Shown here: positions 3,833 through 22,578 of the stretch, one piece after another
Layout of the letters: each line of letters starts with the position of its first letter
Numbering within the stretch: the stretch's first letter is position 1
NCBI RefSeq assembly: GCF_900091445.1
Contig: NZ_LT607733.1
Span: forward strand, 1,505,501 to 1,569,500
Direction of reading: 5' to 3'
DNA length: 64,000 bases
Source of the DNA: Micromonospora echinofusca
GTDB lineage: Bacteria > Actinomycetota > Actinomycetes > Mycobacteriales > Micromonosporaceae
Position numbers and translations under genes: made by a program
Notes under the pieces: model-generated
Told to the model about the DNA's origin: nothing
The model's input: only the letters and a program-made list of their open reading frames with translations
Database searches by the model: none

Positions 3833-5152
3833 TTGAACCGGATCGACCTGCGCGGCGGCGTTCGCGACCCGCGCCGTCTGCTGCCCCGTGCCCAACTCGA
3901 CGTCTCCGTGGCCGTCGAGCGGATCCGCCCTCTCGTGGAGGCGGTCCGGGAGCATGGTTACCCGGCGATCCGGGAGGCCAGTGAGCGCTTCGACGGGGTC
4001 TCGCCCGAGGTGCTGCGGGTGCCCGCCGAGGCGATCGCCGAGGCGGAGGGCACCCTCGACGCGGGGGTGCGCGCCGCGCTGCTGGAGTCCATCACCCGGG
4101 CCCGCAAGGTGCACGCCGACCAGCGCCGCACCGACCACACCACGCAGGTGGTGCCGGGCGGCACGGTGACCGAGCGCTGGGTGCCGGTCGACCGGGTCGG
4201 CCTCTACGTCCCCGGCGGCCTGGCGATGTATCCGTCGACCGTGGTGATGAACGTGGTGCCGGCCCAGGCGGCCGGGGTGCGCTCGCTGGTGGTGGCGAGC
4301 CCACCGCAGCAGGACAACGGTGGCCTGCCCGACGCCCGGGTGCTCGCCGCCTGCGCCCTGCTCGGCGTCGACGAGGTCTACGCCGTCGGCGGCGCCCAGG
4401 CCGTGGCGATGCTCGCGTACGGCACCGCGGTCGACGCCGAGGGCAGCGCCCACTGCGACCCGGTCGACATGATCACCGGTCCGGGCAACATCTGGGTCAC
4501 CGCCGCCAAGCGGCTGCTGCGCGGCGTCGTCGGCATCGACGCCGAGGCCGGCCCCACCGAGATCGCCATCCTGGCCGACGACACCGCCGACCCGGCGCAC
4601 GTCGCGGCCGACCTGATCAGCCAGGCCGAGCACGACCCGCTCGCGGCCAGCGTGCTGGTGACCTGTTCGGTCGAGCTGGTCGAGGCCGTCGAGCGGGAGC
4701 TGGCCCGGCAGGTGCCGGCCACCAAGCACGCCGAGCGGGTCACCACCGCGCTCACCGGCGAGCAGAGCGGCGTCGTCCTGGTCGACGACCTCGACGCCGG
4801 GCTGCGGGTGGTCGACGCGTACGCGGCCGAGCACCTGGAGATCCAGACCCGCGACGCCCGCGAGTGGGCGCTGCGGGTGCGCAACGCCGGGGCGATCTTC
4901 GTCGGCGCCTGGTCGCCGGTGTCGCTCGGCGACTACTGCGCCGGCTCCAACCACGTGCTGCCCACCGGCGGCTGCGCCCGGCACTCCTCCGGCCTGTCGG
5001 TGCAGTCCTTCCTGCGCGGCATCCACCTGGTCGAATACACGCAGGAGGCGCTGCGCGAGGTGGCCCCGCACGTGGTCACCCTCGCCGGCGTCGAGGACCT
5101 GCCGGCGCACGGGCAGGCGGTCAGCGTGCGTTTCCCGGGGGCCGCGTCGTGA
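3830..5152 (+). CDS. hisD: Histidinol dehydrogenase
   Basis: 440 aa, the usual family length. It catalyses the last two steps of histidine synthesis: NAD-dependent oxidation of L-histidinol through the aldehyde to L-histidine, at a zinc site. Visible family motifs are the [12 protein letters not shown] segment, the zinc-ligand region ISQAEHDP, the EHLEIQ stretch and the [12 protein letters not shown] block near the C-terminus. It is the first gene of the his operon, apparently with a leaderless GTG start. Its stop overlaps (GTGA) the start of a 20-codon linker ORF leading to hisC. Confidence 0.97.
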
Positions 5153-5211
5153 GCGGGCCCGACCCCCGCCGGCCGCAGGCCGGCGTCGGGCGGAACGGGG
5201 TGGCCGCGTGA
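5149..5211 (+). other. 59-nt linker mini-ORF between hisD and hisC
   Basis: The hisD stop overlaps a GTG (GTGA at 5149-5152). That GTG opens a 20-codon frame whose TGA (5209-5211) overlaps the hisC GTG (5208-5210). The start-to-start distance is exactly 59 nt. The encoded peptide is Pro/Arg/Gly-rich and not a recognisable protein. The layout fits relay translation from hisD to hisC; see findings. Whether the mini-ORF is translated is inference. Confidence 0.4.
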
Positions 5212-20579: not shown

Positions 20580-22460
20580 GTGGCGAGCAGGACAAGTCGG
20601 GACGTGCTGGTTCGGGGCCTGGTCGTCCTGGGGCGGGCGATCCGGGAGGAGCCCCGCATCTTCGCGGTCGCGGTGAGCGGCAGCGTCCTCTTCGGTGCCA
20701 TGACGGTGGCCAGCGCCTTCGTGGTGGGTGCCGTGGTCGGCGACGTGGTGGTGCCCGCGATCGAGCGCGGCGCGGTCGGGGTCGGGGGGCTCGCCCTGGC
20801 CGCCGTCGCGCTGTTCGGCATCAGCGTGCTGCGGGTGGCCGGCATCTTCGGTCGCCGGCTCGGCGCGGGCTACATGCAGTACCGTCTCCAGGCCGCCTAC
20901 CGGCGCCGGGTGACCCGCCGCTACCTGGAGCTGCCGCTGGCCTGGCACCACCGCAACGCCACCGGCACGTTGCTGTCCAACGCCAACTCCGACGTCGAGG
21001 CCGCCTGGTACCCGATCGCTCCACTGCCGTTCGCGGTCGGCACCCTGGTGATGCTGGTCGGCGCGGTGGCGTCGCTCTTCGTCACCGACTGGGCGTTGGC
21101 GCTTGTCGGTCTCGCGGTCTTCCCGGCGCTCTTCGCGCTCAACGTCGCCTACTCCCGGCGGATGGCGCCCCGCCAGGCCCGGGCCCAGCGGCTGCGCGCC
21201 GAGGTCAGCGGCATCGCGCACGAGAGCTTCGACGGCGCCCTGGTCGTCAAGACGATGGGCCGGGAGGCGCAGGAGACCGACCGGTTCGCCGCCCGCGCGG
21301 GCGAGCTGCGCGACTCGCTGGTGGCGGTCGGGCGGCTGCGCGGCGTCTTCGACCCGCTGCTGGAGACCCTGCCCAGCCTCGGCACCCTCGCCGTGCTGGT
21401 GGTCGGCGCGATCCGGCTGCGGCAGGGCGAGATCAGCGTCGCCGAGCTGATCAGCGTCGCCTTCCTCTTCACGGTGCTGGCGTTCCCCGTCCGGGCCATC
21501 GGCTGGGTGCTGGCCGAGCTGCCGCGCAGCGTCGCCGGCTGGGACCGGGTCAGCCGGGTGCTCGACGCCACCGGCGAGATGCCGTACGGCGACACCACGC
21601 TCGACGTGTCCGAGCCCCGCCCGGCCAGCCTCGCGTTCTCCGGCGTGCGCTTCGGCTACGAACCGGCCGAGGCGCACCTGCCCGGCACGGAGGTGTTGGG
21701 CGAGGTCTCCTTCACCGTGCCGGCCGGGAAGATCGTCGCCCTGGTCGGGCCGACCGGCTCGGGCAAGTCGACGATCGCCGCGCTGGCCGTACGGCTGGTC
21801 GACCCCCTGGCCGGCACGGTGTGCCTGGACGGGGTCGACGTCCGCCGGCTCACCGCCGCCTCGCTGACGGGCACGGCCGCGCTGGTGGCCCAGGTGCCGT
21901 TCGTCTTCGACGACACGGTGCGGGCCAACGTCACCCTGGACCGGCCGGGCATCGGCGACGACGACGTCTGGGCCGCGCTGCGGCTGGCCGAGGCGGACGG
22001 TTTCGTCGCGGCCCTGCCCGAGGGGCTCGACACGATGGTCGGCGAGCGGGGCACCTCGCTCTCCGGCGGTCAGCGGCAGCGGCTCACCCTGGCCCGCGCG
22101 CTCGCCGGCCGGCCGCGCCTGCTGGTGCTCGACGACGCGACCAGTGCGGTCGATCCCCGGGTGGAGGCGGCCATCCTGGCCGGGCTGCGCTCGTCGGCGG
22201 GCGAGGCCGGGGCGCCGGCCGCGTCGATCCTGGTGGTCGCCTACCGGCGGGCCACCATCGCGCTGGCCGACGAGGTGGTCTACCTGGAGCAGGGCCGGGT
22301 GGTGGCCCGGGGCCCGCACGCCGAGCTGCTGGCCACGGTGCCGGGCTACGTCGACCTGGTCACCGCCTACGAGCAGGCCGAGGTCGACCACACCAAGGAC
22401 GAGACGTACGACGAGGTCGCCCCGCTGACGTCGGGCCTGGAAATCGAGGTGGACCGGTGA
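20580..22460 (+). CDS. ABC exporter half-transporter with degenerate ATPase site (subunit 1)
   Basis: 626 aa type IV ABC exporter half: transmembrane domain about 1-330, then an NBD. Walker A GPTGSGKST is intact and the signature LSGGQRQR is canonical. The residue after the Walker B Asp is Asp, not Glu (LLVLDDATSAVD), and the H-loop His is replaced by Tyr (VVAYRRAT). Its own Walker site is therefore expected not to hydrolyse ATP. It pairs with the next gene, which shows the complementary pattern, giving an asymmetric heterodimer. Exported substrate unknown (lipid, peptide or drug). GTG 20580 is chosen from the promoter and Shine-Dalgarno. Confidence 0.9.
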   Translation: MASRTSRDVLVRGLVVLGRAIREEPRIFAVAVSGSVLFGAMTVASAFVVGAVVGDVVVPAIERGAVGVGGLALAAVALFGISVLRVAGIFGRRLGAGYMQYRLQAAYRRRVTRRYLELPLAWHHRNATGTLLSNANSDVEAAWYPIAPLPFAVGTLVMLVGAVASLFVTDWALALVGLAVFPALFALNVAYSRRMAPRQARAQRLRAEVSGIAHESFDGALVVKTMGREAQETDRFAARAGELRDSLVAVGRLRGVFDPLLETLPSLGTLAVLVVGAIRLRQGEISVAELISVAFLFTVLAFPVRAIGWVLAELPRSVAGWDRVSRVLDATGEMPYGDTTLDVSEPRPASLAFSGVRFGYEPAEAHLPGTEVLGEVSFTVPAGKIVALVGPTGSGKSTIAALAVRLVDPLAGTVCLDGVDVRRLTAASLTGTAALVAQVPFVFDDTVRANVTLDRPGIGDDDVWAALRLAEADGFVAALPEGLDTMVGERGTSLSGGQRQRLTLARALAGRPRLLVLDDATSAVDPRVEAAILAGLRSSAGEAGAPAASILVVAYRRATIALADEVVYLEQGRVVARGPHAELLATVPGYVDLVTAYEQAEVDHTKDETYDEVAPLTSGLEIEVDR

Positions 22461-22578
22461 GTGCGAGGAGTGCAGCGGAGCGGAGCCCCGCAGTCGCGAA
22501 CGAAAGGCCAGCCCGGTGAGTGCGAGGAGTGCAGCGGAGCGGAGCCCCGCAGTCGCGAACGAAAGGCCAGCCCGGTGA
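22457..22578 (+). repeat. Two exact 59-bp linker units (copies C and D) between the ABC genes
   Basis: Two identical 59-bp units run from GTG 22457 to GTG 22516 and on to GTG 22575. Each unit is one 20-codon mini-ORF whose TGA overlaps the next GTG (GTGA), so the first opens on the stop of ABC gene 1 and the second closes on the start of ABC gene 2. They share the core GGAGCCCCGCAGTCGCGAAC and the terminal CGAAAGG with copies A and B in the his operon. The last GAAAGG is the likely ribosome site of ABC gene 2. Confidence 0.85.

Follow-up and report, generated by a model that had tools for sequence, protein, structure and literature searches.

A 2025 review describes mycobacterial interspersed repetitive units (MIRUs) as short, dispersed and apparently mobile repeats that insert at start codons (PMC12548453, citing Supply et al. 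1997), with an internal open reading frame (ORF) coupled to the target gene at a spacing of -4 and a likely minimal effect on expression (PMC12548453). Here we analyse 64,000 nucleotides (nt) of Micromonospora echinofusca (assembly GCF_900091445.1, contig NZ_LT607733.1, positions 1,505,501 to 1,569,500; hereafter the window, in whose numbering its positions are given) from a genome of 7.0 Mb in a single contig. In this window, genes of the histidine operon and of an ATP-binding cassette (ABC) exporter are joined by six short linkers. A single repeat family, family 1, accounts for four of them (both ABC linkers, hisC-hisB and hisB-orfX); it has many dispersed copies, a location at start codons and an internal ORF with stop/start overlaps, the last as a matter of geometry. 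This is the MIRU architecture as described, and family 1 would therefore work as PMC12548453 describes for MIRUs. The two differ in that family 1 belongs to another bacterial family; no MIRU sequence was compared directly, and a model search over 121 genomes of the order gave no support for membership in the MIRU sequence family. We regard the family-1 repeat as new and apparently unrelated to MIRUs in sequence, although its kind is already known.

Other described systems share single features with family 1. Bicistronic design cassettes put a short leader cistron before their target gene (PMC5995908), and biotechnology employs short ORFs as a means of bringing ribosomes to the next start (PMC12548453). 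In contrast to the engineered bicistronic design, the family-1 linkers are natural, lie inside operons and vary between species. Reading frame also constrains the Rickettsia palindromic elements (PMC10969869); these become in-frame parts of the ORFs in which they lie, whereas family-1 repeats sit between a stop and a start. The junction type is the one known from termination-reinitiation at ATGA/TGATG overlaps (PMC6728339). Ordinary overlaps of this type carry no insert, whereas family-1 sites consist of two overlaps separated by a mini-ORF.

A repeat family at gene starts

We are rather confident that family 1 is a short interspersed repeat of Micromonosporaceae that was inserted at gene starts, mostly at start/stop overlaps (GTGA, ATGA, TGATG), and that ribosomes would pass by a relay of reinitiation. 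Its core of about 49-54 nt consists of GTGAGCGCGAGGAG, a variable hairpin loop and CCCGCAGTCGCGAACGAAAGG, usually followed by 5-10 nt. A covariance model built from 19 copies gave at least 60 matches at E<=0.1 in the source genome and, at E<1e-3, at least 55 copies, which form 32 arrays (14 with more than one copy). These are lower bounds because only 150 of 15104 first-look candidates were scored by the model, and the array count omits five weak copies (four with E of 0.011-0.05, and one at 2310075 with E = 0.0036). The 3' part of the ABC linker, CCCCGCAGTCGCGAACGAAAGGC, occurs 20 times in this genome with at most two mismatches, and its reversed control not at all. By pattern, family 1 is present in 60 of the 61 genomes of the genus (source genome included) and in 59 of 150 genomes of the family, covering 19 of 44 sampled genera; the reversed pattern had no match in the former set and one in the latter, and the family hence exceeds chance.

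Its distribution is narrow. An exact 18-mer of the repeat was found in 2 of 396 genomes of the phylum, both of the same genus, and in the order-wide model search the 12 matching genomes were all Micromonosporaceae, with one further, marginal match (E = 0.006). Among the matches listed (at least 120 stretches), named records were mostly Micromonospora, the others being a few Plantactinospora, one Verrucosispora and an unclassified Micromonosporaceae strain. Rfam gave no match in the window, nor in the loci L011 and L016, by which a known RNA family was rejected. Five strings of the repeat sequence returned no papers, and among the papers listed none concerned the repeat by title or abstract start, which does not prove that it is unpublished.

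The copies lie at gene boundaries. An upstream gene ends at the edge of 28 of the 32 arrays, a gene starts just after 28, and both hold for 26; in 21 arrays, the upstream gene terminates at the TGA contained in the first GTGA or ATGA of the element itself. This differs from in-frame insertion inside ORFs, with 30 of the 32 arrays directly adjoining the stop or the start of a gene. Among orthologous junctions, some are empty and others hold one, two or three copies, and no transposition event was seen. At the ABC junction, read manually row by row in 30 of the 61 genomes, 8 are empty (mostly ggaCCGGTGA), 9 carry one copy, 8 two and 3 three, with one decayed copy and one unreadable case. Gaps below 20 nt were present in 51 of the 61 genomes at hisD-hisC, in 47 at hisC-hisB and in 22 at hisB-orfX. 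Some short-gap hisC-hisB junctions (G003, G005, G036 and others) contain repeat remnants, apparently absorbed into the hisC C-terminus, such that hisC reads through to an ATGA overlap with hisB.

Bases ahead of the first start/stop overlap tend to recur ahead of the second. Over six positions at 88 sites, flank identity was 2.86, compared with 2.25 ± 0.11 after permutation (maximum 2.66 in 5000), and single direct repeats reach at least 10 bases, e.g. GGACCGGTGA at the ABC junction. This pattern resembles a target duplication in which the start codon is comprised.

Phase of the insert lengths

The insert is flanked on either side by a start/stop overlap, so that the old start codon has become the first codon of a mini-ORF, whose length in the window is 19-21 codons. 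When N, the start-to-start distance across the linker, is 2 mod 3, the mini-ORF stop thus falls on the new start codon. Out of 161 arrays, 140 had a downstream start called, and here N was 2 mod 3 in 114, 0 in 22 and 1 in 4; the remaining 21 lacked a called downstream start and 39 an upstream stop, some because the locus ends, and the loose array pattern admitted a few false matches, e.g. at window position 10445. Counting one site per distinct downstream gene (n=92) gave 70, 19 and 3 for 2, 0 and 1 mod 3. By geometry, an A follows the downstream start in 68 of these 70 sites. The commonest N is 59; 56, 62 and other 2 mod 3 lengths occur too. Before de-duplication, the mini-ORF was open in 107 of 107 cases with a GTG start and N of 2 mod 3, N above 68 being excluded from this count.

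The two halves of the repeat compensate each other in length, with 5' parts mainly of 32, 30 or 27 nt and 3' parts mainly of 27 to 32 nt. Permuting both against each other at 88 of the 92 sites (3' part <=34 nt) predicted 40.8 ± 4.1 sites of 2 mod 3 (maximum 56 in 20000), where 70 were observed, and 21.2 ± 3.0 sites of 1 mod 3 (minimum 9), where 2 were observed. In the de-duplicated 32-nt class, within the same limit, the 3' part measures 24, 27, 28 or 30 nt, never 26 or 29. Part of this compensation can be history, in that subfamilies combine fixed parts. The modal tandem period, taken from 67 arrays, is 2 mod 3 in 37, 0 in 28 and 1 in 2. What is kept is the phase, not 59 nt. Neither is it a peptide, because subfamilies differ in the frame in which they read the 3' half; a conserved peptide was rejected on the grounds that the frame of the CCCGCAGTCGCGA part differs between 5' parts of 32 nt and those of 30 or 27 nt.

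Linkers without the repeat were surveyed in 2.06 Mb of the genome with a simple gene caller of our own based on codon usage (1611 genes, 1046 codirectional pairs; an earlier, smaller run covered 857 kb). Open linkers of 25-99 nt behind start-overlapped stops showed N of 2, 0 and 1 mod 3 in 33, 26 and 2 cases, compared with 46, 44 and 43 in control linkers of this length behind CTGA stops. The phase thus departs from chance. Restricted to the linkers unable to be in-frame extensions, 33 of 35 are 2 mod 3. Linkers behind TAG or TAA gave 8, 7 and 15 in the order 2, 0 and 1, and the open class at 10-24 nt gave 11, 10 and 1. The 0 mod 3 class may consist of starts set too far downstream by the gene caller. 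An A follows the downstream start in 23 of 33 linkers of 2 mod 3, in 6 of 26 of the 0 class and in 43 of 133 controls (23/33 versus 43/133, p = 1.3e-4), and the mini-ORF stop is thereby placed on that start. Lengths are variable: in 24 non-family linkers (GTGA, ATGA or TTGA stop, in phase, xTGA start, 25-99 nt) N ranges from 29 to 101 and is 59 in two, both within the window.

Orthologous linkers in the 61 genomes can be compared in the same manner. Every one of the 31 single hisB-orfX linkers keeps the phase, with ten called lengths between 28 and 94 nt, of which 55 and 58 may stem from the same linker called from alternative starts; for hisD-hisC the count is 9 of 10. Indels in related strains, a point raised by the earlier note, are thus present and usually keep the phase, with hisC-hisB as the weaker case (see below).

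From the observed sequence, location, empty sites and phase we infer the following course. In the simplest reading, the old start codon would stay in use after insertion. Ribosomes finishing gene 1 would reinitiate there and read through the hairpin. In phase 2, they would stop on the new start codon, which has its own Shine-Dalgarno-like segment at the far end of the insert, and would reinitiate on gene 2, presumably aided by the GAAAGG of the repeat. A phase 0 insert would yield an N-terminal extension of gene 2, and a phase 1 insert would lead the ribosome into gene 2 in the wrong frame, for which reason such inserts may have been purged. Because of the relay through the mini-ORF, an insertion should be nearly silent for operon expression. 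Relay translation with reinitiation, proposed by the earlier note, is indirectly favoured by these reading-frame statistics, without the independent selection for 59 nt that had been attached to it.

The six linkers of the window and a second family

Each linker of the window was verified by translation (Table 1). All six are open mini-ORFs with N of 2 mod 3, their start overlapping the preceding stop and their stop overlapping the following start. The earlier note was right that four of them measure exactly 59 nt from start to start, as ORFs of 20 codons plus stop with overlaps at both ends, and that the hisC-hisB linker measures 56 nt; here the GTG shares one base with TAG. Its 59 nt for the hisB-orfX linker hold when counting from the in-frame GTG at 6948; the overlap with the hisB stop involves the GTG at 6942, which gives N = 65. 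Between the ABC genes, a 59-nt unit is duplicated exactly in tandem; the GTG of copy 1 overlaps the stop of the first exporter gene and its TGA the next GTG. The linker types had been taken to differ, with spacing rather than sequence being kept, which is wrong for the four that form one repeat family.

Table 1. Positions of genes, linkers and repeat features in the window
Feature	Position	Strand	Remarks
hisD (histidinol dehydrogenase)	3830..5152	+	Pfam domain
hisD-hisC linker	5149..5211	+	N = 59; outside family 1
hisC (class I/II aminotransferase)	5208..6278	+	Pfam aminotransferase domain
hisC-hisB linker, family-1 repeat	6278..6337	+	Model match 6280-6328; 19 codons, N = 56
Shine-Dalgarno-like GAAAGG of family-1 copy	6322..6327	+	Ahead of hisB ATG 6334; read from sequence
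hisB (imidazoleglycerol-phosphate dehydratase)	6334..6945	+	Pfam domain
hisB-orfX linker, family-1 repeat	6942..7007	+	Model match 6948-6999; 21 codons, N = 65
orfX, 57 residues, between hisB and hisH	7007..7180	+	Without Pfam match
orfX-hisH linker	7177..7239	+	N = 59; outside family 1
hisH (class I glutamine amidotransferase)	7236..7868	+	Pfam hisH-type domain
ABC exporter gene 1	20580..22460	+	Pfam; start approximate
Family-1 repeat copy 1, between ABC exporter genes	22457..22519	+	Mini-ORF VSARSAAERSPAVANERPAR, then stop
Hairpin of repeat copy 1	22457..22497	+	Predicted; GTGA pairing with TCGC outermost
Family-1 repeat copy 2, identical tandem unit	22516..22578	+	Period 59; TGA overlaps ABC gene 2 GTG 22575
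ABC exporter gene 2	22575..24386	+	Pfam

The hisD-hisC and orfX-hisH linkers are not among the covariance-model matches to family 1 in the source genome. They follow the phase rule and derive from sequence other than family 1. A second repeat family (ATGAGCGAGCGGAGCGAGCGAACC...GAGCGAAGCGAGGTGGCGGC, N about 80) has the same start/stop geometry, with 3 pattern matches in the source genome at up to two mismatches and sites at loci L014 and L072 (gap 76), at the hisD-hisC junction of genomes G048 and G057 and at orfX-hisH of G011. Based on simple shuffles of GC-rich sequence, the two window linkers reach z-scores of 2.2 to 5.9 against four family-2 copies and of 0.7 to 1.8 against the family-1 unit. 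These similarities are only suggestive; the linkers may possibly be decayed family-2 inserts of about 80 nt. At locus L145, a family-1 copy apparently stands directly after a family-2-like end (agcgaagcgaggtgcaggc), an arrangement that suggests nested or successive insertion at one start site. The product of orfX is hydrophobic-looking, and all 61 genomes of the genus have a match to it in this position.

Hairpin, alternative readings and significance

The hairpin of family 1 is supported as a pairing by the sequence comparison, with pairs forming in 96.1% of cells in 111 unique cores versus 26-47% when slid. For this count (332 copies, 111 unique), a stricter core pattern, which favours near-consensus copies, replaced a looser one (446 copies, 279 unique, 71.6% paired); there is hardly any variation in most pairs, and a single one is altered on both sides. 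A diverged copy, L010:8166-8218 (-), has both outer stem arms off consensus, yet these look mutually complementary (GATCCG / CGGATC). The hairpin may act in RNA, or in single-stranded DNA during spread. An intrinsic terminator was rejected, since 22400-22650, which spans the ABC copies, has no terminator-like site (hairpin plus T run).

With such a hairpin, family 1 might be an ordinary extragenic element similar to repetitive extragenic palindromes, serving mRNA stability or protein binding, where the mini-ORF is incidental and N = 59 is common owing to the element itself. We consider this improbable, even though the predicted pairing and the one two-sided change agree with it, because the pattern behind the pairing figure is biased toward the consensus and because element size fails to explain why 56 and 62 are common and 55, 57, 58 and 61 rare. 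Length compensation between the halves and the bias in unrelated linkers would also be left unexplained, and 28 of the 32 arrays are located at start codons.

There is very little room for an effect of annotation, in which the overlapping GTG would be the true start of gene 2 and the linker would code for an N-terminal extension: the dominant 2 mod 3 class cannot extend gene 2, and the frame refutes it for all six window linkers, while only the 0 mod 3 linkers (19 of 92 family sites, 26 of 61 non-family) fit. Hardly credible to us is also the strict form of the claim in the earlier note, namely that an exact spacing of 59 nt is selected irrespective of sequence. Four window linkers do have 59 nt, two of them outside family 1, but the non-family lengths scatter from 29 to 101 with 59 in 2 of 24, orthologous hisB-orfX linkers vary from 28 to 94 nt, and the 2.06 Mb surveyed show no excess of 59 outside the repeat family.

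Several observations also weigh against a repeat inserted at gene starts and passed by reinitiation. Coupling to an upstream gene is not universal, as for 4 of the 32 arrays no upstream gene was called that ends at the edge; one of them, at 97428, carries a Shine-Dalgarno-like GAGAGG on its left, and the insertion target hence seems to be the start site rather than coupling as such. In the flank comparison, 36 of 88 sites already mismatch at the base adjoining the start codon. Among the 92 distinct sites, 22 are 0 or 1 mod 3, where the 0 mod 3 sites can be N-terminal extensions or starts misplaced by the gene caller, and shared ancestry among genomes and among loci keeps the counts from being fully independent. 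Open non-family linkers of 100-250 nt are without the 2 mod 3 excess (4, 16 and 1 for 2, 0 and 1), so that only the shortage of 1 mod 3 holds there, and linkers with in-frame stops lean from uniform as well (10, 4 and 4 at 25-99 nt; 16, 1 and 11 at 100-250 nt). Filled hisC-hisB junctions are in phase in only 10 of 14 cases, with 4 of 14 out of 2 mod 3. In 400 kb of the outgroup genome G083, which belongs to the class, the open 25-99 nt linkers behind start-overlapped stops gave 1, 5 and 0, too few cases for a judgement, and the 2 mod 3 excess was not seen among them. No mobilising enzyme was found; Y1_Tnp/RAYT (PF01797), which matched in 5 of 14 control genomes, had no match in the source genome, by which a RAYT/IS200-type mobiliser was rejected there.

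For the wider picture, we see about even chances that Micromonosporaceae evolved, independently of MIRUs, translation-transparent mobile repeats that survive mainly at 2 mod 3 (or 0), and that stop-overlapping starts are used genome-wide. The family would thus be a second lineage with MIRU-like repeats. Its natural insertion variants, with 0 to 3 copies and several lengths, are supplied for measuring coupling. Caution is advised in these genomes, as mini-ORFs and N-terminal extensions at such junctions can be repeat-derived. If the proposal is true, stop-overlapping starts would be used even with an annotated start tens of bases downstream, and many linkers without the repeat would also be ribosome-delivering mini-cistrons without a conserved peptide. 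Insert length mod 3 could then serve as a sequence-only readout of reinitiation, which may hint at the overlapping starts that operons use in Micromonospora, a major antibiotic-producing genus.

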